From Desulfobacterales bacterium (lineage in GTDB: Bacteria; Desulfobacterota; Desulfobacteria; Desulfobacterales; JAFDDL01), in assembly GCA_034003325.1 (NCBI GenBank), contig JAVEYW010000001.1, forward strand, positions 33,838 through 97,837: a stretch of DNA of 64,000 nucleotides. Direction: 5' to 3'. The notes beneath the pieces are model-generated. The model did no database searches and had not been told where the DNA came from. It saw only the letters and a program-made list of their open reading frames with translations. Below are positions 4,726 to 44,812 of this stretch, in pieces; positions within the stretch are counted from its first letter, which is position 1, and every line of letters begins with the position of its first letter. Made by a program: the position numbers and the translations under genes.

Positions 4726-4933
4726 TTATGCGGTTCCAAACGGCTTCACATGTAGCATCAATTCGTCGGCATGACCATTGTAACGGGGTGGCGCCCCCCT
4801 CGCTTTCTCTCCCGGCCTTTTTTCCATGCGCGGCCCACCCCAGAACTATCCCCTTTTCTTGGCGTTCTTGGCGGCTTTGCGTGAAGCATTTATTTTTGCG
4901 GACCTATCATCATTGATCCACAGGGAAACGGGA

Positions 4934-6844
4934 ATGACAAAAAAAGACACCGCTAAGGACACGCCGCCAACCGACATGGATTTCCCGGAATCCGGTGATA
5001 TTGTTCGCGCCCTGATTGAAGAGGGCTATATTACCGAAGAGCAGGCCCAGTACGCCCGCCGCATTCAAGCCAAGCTTCCCACGCAGAAAACCGTCCTGGA
5101 GGTTTTTAAAGAACTCAAGCAGGTAACCGATCAGCAAATCCGGGACGCCATTCACGATCACCGGGTTCAGTTGAGAATCGGGCGTATGCTGGTCGAACTG
5201 GGCCGGTTGACCGAAGGGGATTTGAAAGCCGCGCTAAGCATCAAAGCAAAAGAGAAGGCCAACAAAAAGCTCGGAGAAATTCTGGTTGAGCATAATTTCA
5301 TCGACGAGCGAAAGCTCATCGAAGTGCTTTCCATGCAAATGGGCTTTGAGTATATCGACCCCCAATTTACAAAAATAGATTCGGAACTCTACCGCAAAGT
5401 TCCGCACAAATGGTATGAGGATCATCGCCTGATTCCGATCCGCCGAGAAGGGGACAAGATCATCGTTGCCTTTGCCGATCCGCTGGACAAGCACGAACTG
5501 GCTGAGGCCAGAAAATTTTTCGGCCAGAACATTCGGCCGGCCATTGCGCTGAAAACCTCCATACAGGAAGCCCTCAAACAGATGGAGCGCAGCAGCCGCA
5601 TGGTGAACAAGGCCGAGGTCGCTCATGACACGGTCGTCGGCATCGTCAACAACATTATCATCACCGCGGTGAATGAGGATGTCAGCGATATTCATATCGA
5701 ACCGATGAACGACCGGTTGCGGGTTCGTTTCCGGCAGGACGGCGTGCTGGTGCAATACAAGGATTACGAACGGGAGCTCATATTGCCCTTAGCCAGCCGG
5801 CTCAAGATCATGTGCGGCGCGGATATTGCGGAAAAGCGCCGGCATCAGGGGGGCCGCATTCTGTTTGATATCGCCGACACGCAGGTGGACCTGCGGGTAT
5901 CTTTCTACGTCACCATTAACGGAGAGAAAATCGTGATGCGCCTGCTCAAGCAGCAGGCCACCCTGCTCAATATCGAAGATGTCGGCATATCCCCTCGAAT
6001 TTTCGAACGGTTTCAATATCAGGCGCTCGATCGGCCCAGCGGTGTGCTGATGGTGACCGGCCCCACCGGTTCGGGCAAAACCACCACCGTCTACAGTTGC
6101 ATCAACTATCTGAACAGCCCCACCACCAGTATCATCACCGCTGAAGATCCGGTGGAATACATCATCGACGGCATCGCCCAATGTTCCATCAATCCGAAAC
6201 TGGACCTGACGTTTGAAGAAACCCTGCGCCATATTGTCCGTCAGGATCCGGATGTGGTCGTTATCGGCGAGATTCGGGACAAGTTCTCCGCGGATGTCGC
6301 GGTGAACGCGGCCCTGACCGGTCACAAGGTTCTCACCACTTTTCACACGGAGGACAGCATCGGCGCGCTCATTCGATTGCTCAACATGGGCATCGAGGCA
6401 TTCCTGGTGGCCGCCACGGTGGTGGGTGTGGTAGCCCAGCGCCTGGTCCGCAGACCGTGCAAAGCCTGCGCGGAACCGGAAACACCCAGTCTTGCCGCGC
6501 TTCGCCGCCTGGGCTATAGTGCCAAGGATGTGCTCGGAGGCGAGTTCCAAAAAGGCAAGGGGTGCCCGGAATGCCGGTTTACCGGCTATAAGGGGCGTGC
6601 GGCGATTCTGGAAATCCTCATCATGGACGAATTTCTGCGCAATGCCGTGATTGACCGGCAAAGCACCTATCAGCTCCGCCAGATGAGCATTGAAAAAAGC
6701 GGGCTCGTTACCTTGATCGAGGACGGCATTCTGAAGGCGGCCCGGGGAATCACCACCCTGGATGAAGTGCTCAGATGCCTGCCCCAGGTCATCCGGCCCA
6801 GGCCCCTGGCGGAGCTGCGGCGCATTTCCGGAGAAAAGATATGA
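4934..6844 (+). CDS. GspE/PilB-type secretion ATPase with MshEN head
   Basis: 636 residues from ATG 4934, preceded by CAGGGAAACGGGA; an upstream in-frame extension to 4826 lacks homology and crosses non-coding-looking DNA. Residues about 81-135 contain tandem RIGRMLVELG.. and KLGEILVEHN.. units of MshEN type, which bind cyclic di-GMP in MshE-like ATPases. The C-terminal ATPase has Walker A GPTGSGKTTT (376), an Asp/Walker B region VVVIGEIRD (441), His box TTFHTEDS and a four-cysteine zinc site (CKAC at 509, CPEC at 544). It would power a type IV pilus or type II secretion machine at the inner membrane. No pilin, secretin or PilC-like gene is next to it; only an HDOD gene overlaps its end (ATGA). 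Confidence 0.9.
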   Translation: MTKKDTAKDTPPTDMDFPESGDIVRALIEEGYITEEQAQYARRIQAKLPTQKTVLEVFKELKQVTDQQIRDAIHDHRVQLRIGRMLVELGRLTEGDLKAALSIKAKEKANKKLGEILVEHNFIDERKLIEVLSMQMGFEYIDPQFTKIDSELYRKVPHKWYEDHRLIPIRREGDKIIVAFADPLDKHELAEARKFFGQNIRPAIALKTSIQEALKQMERSSRMVNKAEVAHDTVVGIVNNIIITAVNEDVSDIHIEPMNDRLRVRFRQDGVLVQYKDYERELILPLASRLKIMCGADIAEKRRHQGGRILFDIADTQVDLRVSFYVTINGEKIVMRLLKQQATLLNIEDVGISPRIFERFQYQALDRPSGVLMVTGPTGSGKTTTVYSCINYLNSPTTSIITAEDPVEYIIDGIAQCSINPKLDLTFEETLRHIVRQDPDVVVIGEIRDKFSADVAVNAALTGHKVLTTFHTEDSIGALIRLLNMGIEAFLVAATVVGVVAQRLVRRPCKACAEPETPSLAALRRLGYSAKDVLGGEFQKGKGCPECRFTGYKGRAAILEILIMDEFLRNAVIDRQSTYQLRQMSIEKSGLVTLIEDGILKAARGITTLDEVLRCLPQVIRPRPLAELRRISGEKI

Positions 6845-7685: not shown

Positions 7686-7784
7686 ATGAAGCTGATAGCT
7701 CATAGCTGATAGCTCATAGCTCATAGCTGATAGCTGATAGCTGATAGCTCGTAGCTGATAGCTCGTAGCTGATCGCTGATAGCT
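7686..7784 (+). repeat. Heptamer tandem repeat (AGCTGAT/AGCTCAT)
   Basis: About 14 heptamers of the form AGCTSAT, with variants AGCTCGT and AGCTGATC, lie between the HDOD stop and the 3-prime end of the GAF gene. The same heptamer style (TATCACC and its complement) recurs at 44207 and 44663. Confidence 0.9.
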
Positions 7785-9724: not shown

Positions 9725-9843
9725 TCCGGCAAAGCCGGATGCTGGGAGGCTGGGAGGCTTGGATGCTGGGATGCTGGGATGCGTAAAAGCCATTTTTCAC
9801 CTTCGGCGAATATAGACGCAAAAGCGTGCATGTTTCCGGTAAA
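9720..9843 (+). repeat. Dispersed element A, copy 2
   Basis: Begins CCTAATCCGGCAAAGCCGGA at the panC stop, then octamers of two kinds (GGGAGGCT and GGGATGCT), then the conserved tail GCCATTTTTCACCTTCGGCG and a weak hairpin around ACGCAAAAGCGTG, ending near TTTCCGGTAAATGG. The GGGAGGCT octamer is the unit expanded inside the amidotransferase gene at 51080. Confidence 0.93.
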
Positions 9844-26127: not shown

Positions 26128-27531
26128 TCAATTCACAAAATAATTCCGCCACGCCATATCCAGCGTTTCCGGGGTGACTTCAGGGGGACGGCCGAGAAAA
26201 TGGGCCTCATCAATAATGTGATCGATGAGGTCCTTCGGGTGACACCCGCTCAAGTTCATTCCGGCGCTCTCGTATTTTGACACAAGGTAATCAAAGCTGG
26301 CTGGATCGAATTTCAATCCATTGGAATCGAATACCTTTCGATAAATGTTCGCATATGCTTCGACGGAAGGATAATCGATTTTCAGTTTATACCGAAGCCG
26401 TCTTAAAAAGGCCTCGTCCGCCAGTTTCCTCGGTTCAATGTTGGTCGCGAAAATCACCAACTGGTCAAATGGGATCTCAAATTTCATTCCCGTATGAAGG
26501 GTCAAAAAGTCCGCCCTGCGGTCCAGGGGCACGATCCACCGGTTGAGAAGGGTCTGCGGATCCATTAACTGCCTGCCGAAATCATCAATAATGATAATCC
26601 CATTATTGGCTTTCATTTGCAGCGGCGCTTCATAGTACTTGGCATTGGGATTAAATTCCAGATCGAGTGCTTTAAGGGTTAACTCGCCGCCCGACATGAT
26701 AGCCGGTCTCTTAACCTTAACCCATCGCTTATCGTAATTTTCCGGTTCAACACCGGAATCAATCACATCATAATTGACCTGATCATATAAAAGGACAATT
26801 TGACCGCCGACAAGCACTGAGTATGGGACAAAAATGTCACCGGCCAGGGAGTTACCGATCGCTTTGGCGATCGTCGTCTTGCCGTTGCCCGGCGGGCCGT
26901 ATAAAAAAATCGGCGCCCCGGAATTGATGGCCGCGCCCAGCGTATTCATCATTTTCCCATCCAATACGATACGGGCAAACGCCTTTTCAAGTTTATCTCT
27001 ATTAATTTCTATACTTTTTATGGTCTGCATTTCGACCGCGTAACGGTAATCCGCCAAAGAAACCGGCGCCGGCCCGATATACCGGCACTCCTCCATTAAG
27101 CTCAGGGCGCGGTTGATTCCGGAGGCGGTGATCCGGTATTCATAATCTTTCAATAAAAAGGATGCCCCCGCTTTTGATATTTCCACCATGGAATCATGCC
27201 GCAGACTATCGATGCATTGCGCGATTACGGATTGGGGCAGCTTCATGGTGTCGACCAATTTCGCAATCGTGAAGCTTTTGAAATACAATGCGTGCTTGAG
27301 CAGCAGGTCGGATATGAAAGCGGGCTCTAATTTGGTATCCGCCACAAGGGTCGGGGGATTCGGGAAAAACTGAAAAAAGTTCGATATTTCAGACTCCGTG
27401 ACCAATCCCAGGGCCACCAGATGATGGCCCAGTCTGCCGCCGTAGGCGTGTTGTCTGTCCAATGCCCTTCGAAGGTCGTCAATCGAGACCAAGCCTTTTT
27501 CAAGAACCCGTTCACCAAATAATTTTTCCAT
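26128..27531 (-). CDS. AAA+ ATPase with MshEN-like N-terminus
   Basis: 467 residues from ATG 27531; upstream frame to 27705 has no similarity. The first 52 residues form two MshEN-like units (LFGERVLEKGLVSIDDLRRA and GRLGHHLVALGLVTESEIS). Residues 60-165 are a helical or winged-helix-like linker. The AAA+ core has Walker A GPPGNGKTT (212-220), Walker B IIIIDDFGRQ (about 313), sensor 1 IFATN and DEAFLRRLRYKLKID with an arginine-finger-like pair. The core resembles MoxR/RuvB-like ATPases in arrangement, but I do not know a named family. It is convergent with the Tad accessory lipoproteins, so a role in pilus control is possible. Confidence 0.8.
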   Translation of the reverse strand: MEKLFGERVLEKGLVSIDDLRRALDRQHAYGGRLGHHLVALGLVTESEISNFFQFFPNPPTLVADTKLEPAFISDLLLKHALYFKSFTIAKLVDTMKLPQSVIAQCIDSLRHDSMVEISKAGASFLLKDYEYRITASGINRALSLMEECRYIGPAPVSLADYRYAVEMQTIKSIEINRDKLEKAFARIVLDGKMMNTLGAAINSGAPIFLYGPPGNGKTTIAKAIGNSLAGDIFVPYSVLVGGQIVLLYDQVNYDVIDSGVEPENYDKRWVKVKRPAIMSGGELTLKALDLEFNPNAKYYEAPLQMKANNGIIIIDDFGRQLMDPQTLLNRWIVPLDRRADFLTLHTGMKFEIPFDQLVIFATNIEPRKLADEAFLRRLRYKLKIDYPSVEAYANIYRKVFDSNGLKFDPASFDYLVSKYESAGMNLSGCHPKDLIDHIIDEAHFLGRPPEVTPETLDMAWRNYFVN

Positions 27532-27701
27532 GTTGCACGCTCTCAATCCATTCAAAAGATTTCTCTTCGTGAATACGCCATGCCAACGTTCAGGGGGGGT
27601 AAGGCCAATTGAATCAACCGGCACCGTAATGTATAAAATGAATGCGCCATTGTCAATTTCCGAATAAAAGCCGGAAGATGACTGGGCAAACCGGCCGCAG
27701 C

Positions 27702-30700
27702 TCACAAAGGATTCGGCGCTAACGCAGCTGCCAGCGCCGTGAGAATTTTTTCCAGGCTATAGGGCTTTTTGATATAGGCCATAACCCCCAGCCGCAACGC
27801 CTCTTTGACGCGGTCGGTTTCCGAAAACCCACTGGCGATAACAACTTTTTGTTTCGGATTGAGGCCCAATATCTGCTGATAGGTTGAAAGCCCGTCCATT
27901 CCCGGATCCATTATCATATCCAGGAGCACCAGATCGACCGCGGCATGGGATAAATAGTCGACGGCCTTCTCGCCGCTGGGAACACTGACCGTTCGATAGC
28001 CGGCCTTGGTCAAAATGCTTGACGCGATATCCCGTTGGGCCTCGATGTCGTCCACGATCAGAATCATCTCGCCGTTTCCCCGGTAACGATCGAAATCAAA
28101 CGTTTCGGGAACCTGCAGGCGTGATTCTTGCGTCACCGGGAAAAACAGCTCGCACACCGTCCCTTTTCCCGGCTCGCTGTCGATATCGATATAGCCCTTA
28201 TGATCCTGAACCGTGCCCCAGACCACGGCCATGCCGAGCCCCGTGCCGCTTCTGCCCATCACTTTCTTGGTGTAGAACGGCTCAAAAATTCTTTTTAAAT
28301 CCTCTTTATCAATGCCGATGCCCTTGTCGGCCACCCGCAATACGACATAATCACCGGGCTGAATCGAATCATAGCCCTTTAACGCCCTGTCCAGATAGCG
28401 GTTTTCGGTGGCCAGCACGATTTTCCCGTCCACGGGATGGGCCTCCGCCGCATTGGTCACGAGGTTCATAACGGTCTTTCTTAGATGAATGGGAACCCCC
28501 CGAATATTCAACGCGTCCGGGTCAAGAGACACGTCAAGCGACAGACCGGAATAAAAGCTCAACAGTTTTCGGTGTTCGGCTGAAGCCAGATAATCGGTAA
28601 TGATGTCATTCAAATTCAACACCTCGGTGTTCATGACCCCCCTGCGGGCCAGGGTCAAGAGATCCTCCACGATATCCGCGGCTTTCCGGCCGGATTGCTG
28701 AATGGTAAGAATCGGCTGACGAAGGGGGCTGTCCTGCGGCAGATCCAGAAGCAGCAGCTCGGGATAACTCACGATGCCCGAAAGCACATTATTCAGGTCA
28801 TGGGCCACGCCGCCGGCAAGAAGCCCCAGGGCCTCCATTTTTTGAGCTTGCCCCAATCGTTCCCGAAGCGCTTCCTGCTCTTTTTGCATTCGCCGCTCCT
28901 CATCAATGCTCCTGACAATGCCTAAAAACGTAATCTCTCCATTCCTGTTGCGCACCGTTGACAAGCTGGTTTGGCGCCAGACATACTCGCCGTCTTTTCC
29001 CAGCACCCGATGGGGCAAGGGCGCCATCTTCTCTCCTTTAAGCACCCTTGCCATGTAGGCGTCACGCGCTTCAATATCATCCGGATGCGTGAATTCCTTA
29101 TAATTTCTACCAGTCATTTCACTTTCCGTAATCCCGAACAGATCAAAAATATTGGGTGAAAAATAGGTATAGTTTCCCGTTGAATCCATCGTGAAAATAA
29201 CTTCGGAGGCGTTTTCCACGTATGAGCGGAACCGCTCCTCGCTCGCGCGAAGCGCTTCCTGAGCCTGCTTGCTCTCGGTAATATCCATATAAAAACCGAT
29301 GCCGGCAATGATCTGGCCGGCTTCATCGTAGACCGGCCCCGCATTAATATAAATCCACCGGTCCTCACCCGCTGCATTGCGCAACATCATTTCATGGTTT
29401 CGCGTCACCTCGCCATATTTCACTGCACGGCAAATCGGCAGATCATCGGGCGCATAGGCACGACCGTCCGGGTAAAAAGTACGCCATCTGGTTGGAATCA
29501 GTTCACCGGGAATATTCGTCAGGTTCTTTTCCTCGCCGCCTATAATGGCCACACCGGCCGGATTGGCCAAGCGAATCCGCACATCCGGCGCGTCCGCGAT
29601 CACCAGCCCGGCCGGAGACTGCTCAAAAGCCGCCTGCAAAAGCGCTTGCGCCTCGTGCAGATCCGCTTCGGTTTTCTTTCTCTTTTCAATGTCGCGTCTC
29701 AACACCTCGTTAAAGCGGCGCAACTCCTCGGCCTTGGCGTCCAACTGTGAAATTAAACCGCCAAAAGCCTCACCGAGGGAACCGATCTCATCTTTTCCCT
29801 GCGGCGGCAAATGGGCACCGGTCGCTCCCGAAAACGCAAGATCGGCAATCTGTTTTCTAAGCCGTTCAATCGGTCCGATGACCGCGCGTTGCAGTAGGCA
29901 CAGCGCGACAATGAACATTCCGGCCATGCCGATAAAATTCGATACGATCGAATAGCGAATCGCTTCTCGCCCCCTTGAAGAAATCTCTCTTCGGGTTTCG
30001 GCTTTGACCACAACGGCCGGGTTGCCCATCACATCATTTATTACCGCATACGCCGCCAACGTTTTGCGATCCAGATGGACCATCCGGCAGGATCTGCCCG
30101 TGCTATCCGGAATGTTACACACTTTTGCCGTCTCGGGAACGGCATCGGCAGTATACGGCAACACGTTAAAGGGTTGATGCAGCCGCGCGGCAAAGTCCCT
30201 GATCAGTTTGTCATTTAAAAACCGGCCCATTATCAGCGTTCCCTGAATGGGCCCCCCGCCATCACTGGTCAGAATTGGGCGCGATGCAAGAAGCATGGGC
30301 CCTTGCGGGGTCATTAAAAATCCGCTGACGCTGAAATTCACCAACGGAACATTCTCCCGCTCATAGGCAAAAAAAGGGTGAGATACCGGCAAGAATCCGT
30401 CACCCATGGCCGAAATAGAAGCCTGATGCTTGAAATCTTTATCATAGGCCCGCCCCCAGACCATCCGGCCTTGGGAATCATAGAAATAAATCAGATGAAT
30501 GCCGTTGTTCCTGAAAGTGCTTAATCCCAGATTGACACGCTGATAATCATCGCTCCGGGTCGCAATAAAATGACAGGTATCGTCCCAGAACGCCCAGTCC
30601 CGGCACGTCGTATTCAAATGATCCACGTTGTCCCAGATCGCATCCACTGAACGAAAGAGATTTCTCCCGGCCCCCTCCTGCTCCAGTGTTGCAAAGCGAG

Positions 30701-32953: not shown

Positions 32954-33093
32954 TATTCCGGCAAAGCCGGATGCTGGGATGCTGGGATGCTGGGATGCTG
33001 GGATGCATGAAAGCCATCTTTCACCTTCAGCGAATATACACGCAACAACGTGCATGTTTCAGATTATATGTCTAATCCGGCAAAGCCGGAAGC
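32954..33093 (+). repeat. Dispersed element A, copy 6, with a partial second copy
   Basis: CCGGCAAAGCCGGA, about four octamers, tail GCCATCTTTCACCTTCAGCG and hairpin ACACGCAACAACGTGC, followed by a second CTAATCCGGCAAAGCCGGA head only. It sits just upstream of the DUF4126 start codon, whose leader it overlaps. Confidence 0.92.
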
Positions 33094-36857: not shown

Positions 36858-38291
36858 GTGAATCAAAATGCTTTTGTCTGCAAGTGCATCATGGACACCG
36901 TCGATGGCCTCAGCGACGGGCTTTCCCATTACTCAGAGCCGAGCCGTGTGGCGGTCATCTACGCCATCTCTCCGGAAGATTCCATTCAATTATACGATCC
37001 TCAGGGCCTGTTGAACGGACACGAACCGATTCTCAAGGAACTGTATCTGGATAACGAAAGCTGGCGGCACTCAAAAATACCACCGGCCGACAACAACTCC
37101 TTCCGGAACATGCAACCCGCAGAGAAGCTGGCATTGGCGGGGCTCATTTCCTACGGCGCACACTCCGGATCGGTCTGCTATCAAATGTGGTTTACCGAAC
37201 ACCACGCGGAGATGAGTTCCATCGGTCCCACGGAACGCTGGCTGGAGCACGCCGCCTGGCGTTTTTCCCATGATATGGCCAATGAGCCGAATCTGTATAC
37301 GGGTATTTCCGGGGCTTTTTTAAGAGAATATGCTACCCATGCAGTGCGGGACACCCTTGTCGATGAAATGAATATTTACCTGGGGTGGGACACCCAGCTC
37401 AGGATCTATCCCATTCTGGATGCGGTGCTGGGTATCTCCCGCACCGTCGAAGAAGGCGCCTGGGCACGCGGCAAACTCCGGTTTGTCGAACCCCGCTCGC
37501 TGGCCACGCTCTCCTTTCTGGCACGGTTTCCGACCCTGGAACGCCCTTTTCTCGCCCATCACAAACATGTGCGCAAATTATTAACCTCGGTGGAAAACTC
37601 GGATCGCGTGCTGGTCTCCGACGGAAAGACCCTTGTGGGGATTGCGCAAAAAGATCTTCCGAATTTCTCCATCACCGCAGATTTCAGAGGCGGACATGGG
37701 TTTTTGAACCTCAACACCAACCCCATATGCAGTTTCGCGGACGGCAACTTTCATTCAAAGACCTATCAGGCCAAACTCGTTCAAGTGGAAGAAGCGCTTC
37801 TGGAGTCGGACCTGGATTCAACCCTCGGCAATTCACTCTTTAAGATTCTCGCCGCCATTGTTCATAACGCCGAGAACACCAAGCACGGTTGCACCCTGGT
37901 GCTCGATCTGAACACGGAGCGGTTGCACCTATCCGGCCAAAAACTGGAGGCCCCAATCGATCTTCAAAACGTGGGCGGCCTTCAATTGGCGCAATCGCTC
38001 TCAAAGGTGGACGGCGCCTTGCACATCGGAAAAGACCTGCATCTTCATGGCTTTGCCTGTCTGCTGGACGGCATGGCCATTGCCGGTGAGGATCGTTCCC
38101 GCGGCGCGCGCTATAACTCCGCGCTTCGATTCACCGCCGCGCATAATAACATTCTGGTGGTCGTGGTCTCGTCGGATCGGCCGGTTTCGGTGATTCAAGA
38201 AGGGGTTGAACTTAACGCGCTGTGCCGCTGGCAGCCCGCTAATAATTGCGCGCTAATGCCCATTCCCCTGAAAGACGCCTTTCATTATTAA
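36858..38291 (+). CDS. DisA-N (diadenylate cyclase) domain protein with altered signature
   Basis: 477 residues from a GTG start with GAAGGA upstream. About 260 N-terminal residues are a domain I cannot place, with HXXXE-like WRFSHDMANEPNLY and other conserved-looking aromatic motifs. The C-terminal 150 residues follow the DAC (DisA_N, PF02457) fold: GALHIGKDLHLHGFACLLDG, then RGARYNSALRFTAAHNNILV and VVVVSSDRPVSVIQEGVEL. DAC enzymes make c-di-AMP and carry DGA and GTRHRAA motifs; here they read DGM (404-406) and GARYNSA (416-422). Either a divergent cyclase or a nucleotide-binding relative. Its neighbours do not tell. Confidence 0.75.
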   Translation: MNQNAFVCKCIMDTVDGLSDGLSHYSEPSRVAVIYAISPEDSIQLYDPQGLLNGHEPILKELYLDNESWRHSKIPPADNNSFRNMQPAEKLALAGLISYGAHSGSVCYQMWFTEHHAEMSSIGPTERWLEHAAWRFSHDMANEPNLYTGISGAFLREYATHAVRDTLVDEMNIYLGWDTQLRIYPILDAVLGISRTVEEGAWARGKLRFVEPRSLATLSFLARFPTLERPFLAHHKHVRKLLTSVENSDRVLVSDGKTLVGIAQKDLPNFSITADFRGGHGFLNLNTNPICSFADGNFHSKTYQAKLVQVEEALLESDLDSTLGNSLFKILAAIVHNAENTKHGCTLVLDLNTERLHLSGQKLEAPIDLQNVGGLQLAQSLSKVDGALHIGKDLHLHGFACLLDGMAIAGEDRSRGARYNSALRFTAAHNNILVVVVSSDRPVSVIQEGVELNALCRWQPANNCALMPIPLKDAFHY

Positions 38292-40896: not shown

Positions 40897-41017
40897 TGAC
40901 CGGAGCGGCGCCATATCTTGCAGAATGGTTTCGCTTGACATACAAAAGGACTTTTATCATAACGCACAGGTCCTGCTGTGTTTTTATCGAATGATAACTT
41001 TTTTTTACGGGAACCAC

Positions 41018-41869
41018 ATGATTCACTCAATTAGCCCGGATATTGAGCAAGCGGTTCATCTTTTTTTCGCCGATCATTTTCTCGATGAGCAAGGGGCGAA
41101 ATTCTATCGCGTCGGAATGGAAGAAATCAAAAAAGAATTCCGCAAAAAAGCCTTGCTGTTCCATCCGGATAGAGCGATATTATTGGGCAAAAGCAGAGGG
41201 TTGCTGGAAAAAAAGTTTAAAGAAATCACCGATGCCTATGGCATACTCAAAGCCGCATTGGCCGATGATTACCTCATTGTCCGCTCACCCTTTGTCCCCA
41301 AGCCGAACATGGGGTATCACCGGGCGGAAACAGTGAGCCGCCCTTCTCCCCCAAAAGCCGCCCCCCATTCCGGCAAGGCATCGCCCGCAAGCGCCGGAAC
41401 GCGGCCGAAAGACACTTCGGCAAGCCCAAGGCCGTTTCAACGGCAACACCGCCAGTCCTTTTTCTTCAAAGGCACGCTTCCTCGCCGCAAGCTTCGGTTG
41501 GGAGAATATTTATTCTACAAACGGGTAATCACCTGGCACACACTGATTCAGGCCATCGTATGGCAGCATCGGGTTCGGCCCAGGCTGGGGCAAATCGCCC
41601 TGGATCTGAACTACATGGATCCTCAGGATGTTTACGCCATACTGAAAAACAGGCGGTTTAGGGAACCATTCGGCCGGGCCGCGGTTCGGCTCGGATTTCT
41701 GGATGATTACCGGCGGTTCGTCCTTTTGGGCCGGCAGCGCAGCTTCAACCTGCCCCTCGGCAAATTTTTTATAGACGCCCGGATTCTCGACAAGGCCGCT
41801 ATAGACCAACATATTCTGGAAAACCGGCTGCATAATTTTTACTGCAACAGAGAGTTGCGTAGGTTATAG
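41018..41869 (+). CDS. J-domain protein with four MshEN-like repeats
   Basis: 283 residues; start ATG 41018 is likely, with 40991 possible. A J-like helix set with the HPD motif at 49-51 (IKKEFRKKALLFHPDRAI, then KFKEITDAYGILKAAL) occupies about 30-80; residues 90-155 are a Pro/Ser-rich linker. From 159 to 270 come four repeats of the type RLGxxLxxxxxxxxxxLxxAIxxQ (LRLGEYLFYKRVITWHTLIQ; RLGQIALDLNYMDPQDVYAI; FGRAAVRLGFLDDYRRFVLL; PLGKFFIDARILDKAAIDQH). These resemble the MshEN c-di-GMP-binding repeats of secretion ATPases. It is flanked by non-coding repeats and PrsT. I know no named family with this order. Confidence 0.72.
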   Translation: MIHSISPDIEQAVHLFFADHFLDEQGAKFYRVGMEEIKKEFRKKALLFHPDRAILLGKSRGLLEKKFKEITDAYGILKAALADDYLIVRSPFVPKPNMGYHRAETVSRPSPPKAAPHSGKASPASAGTRPKDTSASPRPFQRQHRQSFFFKGTLPRRKLRLGEYLFYKRVITWHTLIQAIVWQHRVRPRLGQIALDLNYMDPQDVYAILKNRRFREPFGRAAVRLGFLDDYRRFVLLGRQRSFNLPLGKFFIDARILDKAAIDQHILENRLHNFYCNRELRRL

Positions 41870-44172: not shown

Positions 44173-44206
44173 TACCGAACCTCCAATTAACTTGGGTAGG
44201 TGATGG

Positions 44207-44264
44207 GTGTAGCTGATAGGTGATAGGTGATAGCTCATAGGTGATAGCTTATAGGTGATTGATA
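44207..44264 (-). repeat. Heptamer tandem repeat, minor array
   Basis: Short run of GTGATAG-type heptamers just upstream of PrsT, same family as at 44663 and 7686. Confidence 0.85.
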
Positions 44265-44662: not shown

Positions 44663-44812
44663 ACAATCACCTATCAGCCATGAGCTATCACCTATCACCT
44701 ATCACCTATCACCTATCACCTATCACCTATCACCCATCAGCTATCACCTATCAGCTATCACCTATCAGCTATCACCTATCAGCTATGAGCTATCACCTAT
44801 CACCTATCACCA
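44663..44812 (+). repeat. Heptamer tandem repeat, main array (TATCACC)
   Basis: About 21 heptamers, mainly TATCACC with TATCAGC variants. They run into the stop codon of the CAAX-type protease gene (44807) on one side and toward the S23 start on the other. Confidence 0.92.

Follow-up and report, generated by a model that had tools for sequence, protein, structure and literature searches.

A conserved bacterial protein family joining a J domain to four MshEN-type repeats: a candidate c-di-GMP-linked co-chaperone of DnaK

A 283-aa protein consisting of a J domain, a linker and four MshEN-type repeats is encoded by an open reading frame at positions 41018 to 41869 (+) of the window, the 64,000-nucleotide stretch of a Desulfobacterales genome analyzed here. 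This layout, proposed in a sequence-only reading of the same DNA, was confirmed and is that of a conserved bacterial family, not of a one-off fusion. The best reading of the protein is as a DnaK co-chaperone that is regulated by c-di-GMP or that is derived from a c-di-GMP sensor. An alternative in-frame ATG at 40925 would give a product of 314 aa; the start sites of orthologues fall near 41018 and back the shorter form. Relatives were detected at 97 loci or contigs in a scan of GTDB species genomes; 80 of these loci were fetched, and all conservation counts given below are for 99 distinct sequences.

J-domain proteins set the targets of Hsp70, and the J domain activates DnaK (Hsp70). The Pfam DnaJ model (PF00226) matched aa 34 to 78 of the window protein in an hmmscan search (7.5e-9; 36 bits against a cut-off of 27.8) and matched 28/28 of the members tested at E ≤ 0.1. 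The domain as a whole extends over aa 7 to 82 (41036 to 41263, +) and comprises helix I, a long family-specific loop between helices I and II, a basic helix II, the HPD motif and helix III. The HPD-bearing, J-like domain of the earlier reading was borne out, the motif (aa 49 to 51; 41162 to 41170, +) lying within the above-threshold Pfam match. This motif, between helices II and III, was unchanged in 99/99 sequences, and the basic residues of helix II (K38, R42 and K/R at 43-44) were also conserved. The J-domain helices were visible in an AlphaFold2 model, which aligned with the DnaK-bound J domain 5nro_B (Z 7.0; 2.6 Å over 61 residues) and with many further J domains at Z 5 to 7. By profile, by the HPD and helix II residues and by fold, the protein is a member of the J-domain (DnaJ/Hsp40) proteins and, judged from these sequence features, likely acts as a J-domain co-chaperone. 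The source genome contains two full-length DnaK genes and eight J-domain proteins. The J domain is followed by a low-complexity linker (aa 88 to 150; 41279 to 41467, +) that is variable in the alignment and, with pLDDT values mostly below 55, is probably disordered. Most members of the family are 240 to 300 aa long, with a linker that is variable and predicted to be disordered.

The C-terminal part is made up of repeat 1 (aa 160 to 183; 41495 to 41566, +; RLGEYLFYKRVITWHTLIQAIVWQ), repeat 2 (aa 189 to 212; 41582 to 41653, +; RLGQIALDLNYMDPQDVYAILKNR), repeat 3 (aa 217 to 240; 41666 to 41737, +; PFGRAAVRLGFLDDYRRFVLLGRQ) and repeat 4 (aa 246 to 269; 41753 to 41824, +; PLGKFFIDARILDKAAIDQHILEN), and an invariant His-Asn pair in the family alignment (aa 272 to 273; 41831 to 41836, +) marks the end of the domain. 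The sequence-only reading had described four repeats of the form RLGxxL..LxxAI.Q. Four repeats are present, but only repeat 1 comes near that pattern, and its tenth residue is Arg, not Gly. Repeat 2 starts with RLG and ends in Arg, repeat 3 starts with PFG, and repeat 4 starts with PLG and ends in Asn. The Gly-to-Gly spacing was 29 residues between repeats 1 and 2 and between repeats 3 and 4 in 99/99 sequences, and 28 residues between repeats 2 and 3 in 84/99. The MshEN register of 24-residue motifs with a 5-residue spacer is, hence, exact in pairs 1-2 and 3-4, and the distance from R9 to R38 of MshE is likewise 29 residues (PMC5013675).

Relatedness to MshEN was supported by profile, profile-profile and fold comparisons. 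The NCBIfam model NF053729 ("c-di-GMP_motif, MshE-related") matched aa 160 to 210 (4.5e-10; 39.2 bits against a cut-off of 38) and was found in 28/28 of the members tested. In profile-profile comparisons by hhalign against an alignment of other MshEN motifs from the source genome, probabilities of 91.6%, 96.7% and 97.7% were obtained for repeats 1-2, 2-3 and 3-4, while six column-shuffled controls gave 0.2 to 0.6%. Self-similarity of the family profile exhibited peaks at column lags of 57, 86, 29 and 28. These lags, the hhalign matches absent from the shuffled controls and the NF053729 matches in all members tested indicated that the four repeats are more than a chance resemblance. Among PDB sequences, the family profile matched PilF (6f8l, E = 3e-7) and MshE (5htl, E = 1.9e-4). 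The Pfam MshEN model PF05157 matched neither the window protein (E ≤ 1) nor any of 28 orthologues (E ≤ 0.1), so the earlier expectation of an MshEN match by profile failed for this model and held for NF053729 and hhalign and in the superposition on 5HTL. Structure prediction, suggested earlier as a check, agreed with the assignment. AlphaFold2 modelled the full protein with a pLDDT of 81.9 and the repeat domain alone, from 79 sequences, with a pLDDT of 94.5; the former superposed on c-di-GMP-bound MshE (5HTL) at 1.5 Å over 57 residues and the latter, deeper model at 2.1 Å over 58 residues, both with a Z of 10.9 and both through repeats 2 and 3. Foldseek E-values for the models were not significant, and the fold assignment is based on the rmsd and Z values from VIA-align together with the profiles. 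With respect to which repeats would pair into a ligand bundle, the models favour repeats 2 and 3, while the fixed 29-residue register favours 1 with 2 and 3 with 4.

In MshE, each 24-residue motif contributes an Arg that stacks on the ligand, a Leu, a Gly making backbone contacts, two Leu of a hydrophobic triad and a Gln that contacts ribose and phosphate; binding was damaged most by changes of the Gly or hydrophobic residues, and earlier changes of Arg9, Asp12 and Gln32 had lowered it by about fivefold at most (PMC5013675). Across the family, the Gly was kept in 95, 99, 87 and 99 of 99 members in repeats 1 to 4, respectively, and the hydrophobic triad in 96, 92, 67 and 77. The contact Gln was present in 97, 0, 99 and 33 members (Q183 of repeat 1 and the invariant Q240 of repeat 3 in the window protein), and Arg or Lys at position 1 in 14, 32, 72 and 29. 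Each repeat pair is, hence, without one of its two phosphate/ribose-contact Gln, and the stacking Arg is variable. In the window protein, RLG occurs in repeats 1 and 2 and the contact Gln in repeats 1 and 3; Gln is missing from repeats 2 and 4 and Arg from repeats 3 and 4, and in no pair do both motifs show the complete signature RLGxx..G..L...L..Q. Binding of c-di-GMP is plausible and fits the retained Gly and hydrophobic positions, though the strict signature does not predict it; regulation of the protein by c-di-GMP is also plausible. The earlier idea of a chaperone cycle linked to a second messenger is thereby supported in part.

The same residues bear on the strongest alternative, in which the repeats are degenerate, non-binding MshEN units serving as a scaffold for a client or partner and the protein is a constitutive, client-specific co-chaperone of DnaK. 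Degenerate MshEN domains can lose binding, as in XpsE (PMC5013675), and the loss of one contact Gln per pair and of the stacking Arg in most members speaks for such a scaffold. The family also conserves stretches outside the ligand positions (WQRxQRP, YLYYSG and the terminal HN), which suggests a conserved protein surface. However, the Gly and hydrophobic positions, which matter most for binding, were retained, and the residue that replaces Gln at position 24 of repeat 2 is a conserved R/K (92/99) that could contact phosphate. We regard this alternative as a real possibility that nonetheless falls well short of an even chance.

The gene stands alone, preceded by a gap of 746 bp and followed after 24 bp by a TPR gene in convergent orientation. 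Conserved gene neighbours had been put forward as a further check; no conserved operon partner and no constant neighbour were found across the family. Syntrophales-type loci had FmdB zinc ribbon and DUF218 genes as neighbours, Scalindua loci had PntB, and Desulfurivibrio relatives had an M48-type peptidase. A second small J protein (∼180 aa) was encoded in the same orientation 117 to 168 bp upstream in some Desulfobacterales (L046, L055 and L105). In four Desulfobacterales loci (L071, L072, L077 and L078), the gene and a diguanylate cyclase (GGDEF) gene are divergently oriented, and the latter is followed by a CheD-HDOD gene; these loci are the only contextual tie to c-di-GMP and motility. GGDEF proteins made up 5/140 of the sampled neighbours, mostly from one clade, and were absent from the top list of far neighbours; as this near-versus-far tally is too thin, no enrichment is claimed. 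Nine GGDEF proteins and one EAL protein are encoded by the source genome and 5 to 27 GGDEF proteins by each of 8/8 other carrier genomes, but co-occurrence is uninformative because GGDEF is near-universal in the phylum (41/42 carriers versus 378/395 genomes). No riboswitch was detected upstream of the gene in the window (Rfam).

Other features of the window and genome were also recorded. A diadenylate cyclase (c-di-AMP synthase) with DACND and DACNH sensor domains is encoded at 36858 to 38291 (+), ∼2.7 kb upstream of the J-MshEN gene. Six CRISPR repeats (RF01330, CRISPR-DR16) occupy positions 1 to 403, the array beginning at or before the window edge. Scattered tandem arrays with recurring 7- and 8-bp units were present, including 7-bp units such as ATCACCT (7690 to 7784, 44197 to 44259 and 44666 to 44811), and the array unit GGATGCTG occurred at three places (1674 to 1784, 9737 to 9782 and 32969 to 33006). 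In a 525-aa protein (26128 to 27705, -), a pair of MshEN motifs lies at the N terminus (NF053729, 53 bits), and inspection by eye shows a Walker A P-loop (GPPGNGKT) like that of AAA-type ATPases; no Pfam match was obtained for the protein at 1e-5. A 457-aa frame elsewhere in the source genome (G000 C17:69021-69698, -) consists almost entirely of repeats, with six successive overlapping MshEN motif matches (L117, L119, L122, L124, L125 and L128), and is the best match in its own genome to the repeat part of the query.

Further MshEN proteins in the source genome, among them a PilB/GspE-type ATPase (4826 to 6844), raise another explanation, namely, that the repeat domain pairs with the MshEN domain of type IV pilus or type II secretion ATPases and that the J domain brings DnaK for assembly or disassembly in an auxilin-like manner. 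The spacing of the repeats would fit bundles of the MshEN type. As pil and gsp genes were not recurrent beside family members, this explanation is improbable.

Relatives of the full-length type (E < 1e-12) were detected in 42 of 395 phylum genomes, the source genome included, by a tblastn-type search. The GTDB loci were mostly from Desulfobacterota; other carriers were anammox Planctomycetota (Scalindua, Kuenenia and others), Nitrospirota (Nitrospiraceae), Gemmatimonadota, Myxococcota, including Anaeromyxobacter, and one Spirochaetes MAG. That the gene is a fusion by chance or an artefact of annotation confined to a single genome, with no functional family behind it, could be imagined since the source genome is the only one of its taxonomic family in the genome set, but this was rejected as having a negligible probability: the same architecture recurs in these 42 genomes and on the 97 contigs from several phyla, and its repeat spacing and HPD are fixed. 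The copies in anammox Planctomycetota (Scalindua, Kuenenia and Brocadiaceae; L050 to L054, L059, L080, L083 and L087) shared ≤46% identity with the Desulfobacterota query, which suggests horizontal transfer.

The explanation that we prefer, tentatively and with slightly less than even confidence, is a specialized J-domain co-chaperone of DnaK that is regulated via its c-di-GMP-linked repeat domain. Since HPD is intact and helix II is basic, we infer that the HPD domain would dock on a DnaK and trigger ATP hydrolysis. The flexible linker would tether the C-terminal helical domain of four repeats, assigned by profile and fold, which would most likely bind c-di-GMP or bind a partner in a c-di-GMP-dependent manner. 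The nucleotide could then alter the shape of the domain or client binding and, hence, when and where DnaK is recruited, such that a second-messenger state associated with sessile or motile life would be translated into selective folding, stabilization or disassembly of clients. The ligand, the client and the regulatory direction are all putative. The broader proposal of a widespread family of c-di-GMP-gated DnaK co-chaperones, in which tandem MshEN repeats bind c-di-GMP and switch access of the J domain to DnaK or client, we consider less likely than not. If it were true, Hsp70 targeting would be a direct output of c-di-GMP signalling. A conserved J protein with the fold of a second-messenger sensor would connect c-di-GMP directly to the chaperone machinery, and the small size and confident prediction of this protein make binding and DnaK stimulation directly measurable. 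The family also lends itself to the question of how far an MshEN site can degenerate before binding stops.

No paper on MshEN joined to a J domain turned up in the literature searched, in keeping with the earlier statement that no described protein of this layout is known; an earlier listing among MshEN domain partners is possible. The combination, at the co-chaperone level and across phyla, thus appears undescribed within that literature. MshE of V. cholerae (5HTL) and the GSPII-B domain of T. thermophilus PilF have, like the protein described here, helical-hairpin repeats with 29-residue spacing and Gly and hydrophobic ligand positions. This protein differs from them in having four repeats, a fused J domain and no ATPase, and in the absence of one Gln per pair and of many Arg. 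NfrB, a c-di-GMP-activated glycosyltransferase with a C-terminal MshEN domain (PMC8669469), gave a weak sequence match to the repeats of some members (NF008411) but is a membrane enzyme without a J domain. AtcJ of Shewanella resembles this family in joining a J domain to a non-DnaJ C-terminal part for a special task, but its extension has only 21 residues and no nucleotide-sensor-like domain (PMC6715715). A link between c-di-GMP and chaperones is already known as a concept from Myxococcus xanthus, the only precedent found, in which PilZ proteins carry a DnaK or DnaJ domain (PMC8316039) and the PilZ-DnaK proteins CsdK1 and CsdK2 stabilize CdbS (PMC10313047). As in the family described here, a c-di-GMP receptor-type domain is joined there to a part of the Hsp70 system. 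The Myxococcus sensor domain is PilZ, not MshEN, and is unrelated in sequence to the repeats described here; no PilZ match was obtained in the window protein (E ≤ 1) or in 28 members (E ≤ 0.1). Furthermore, CsdK1 and CsdK2 are Hsp70 itself, whereas the protein described here is the J-domain partner.
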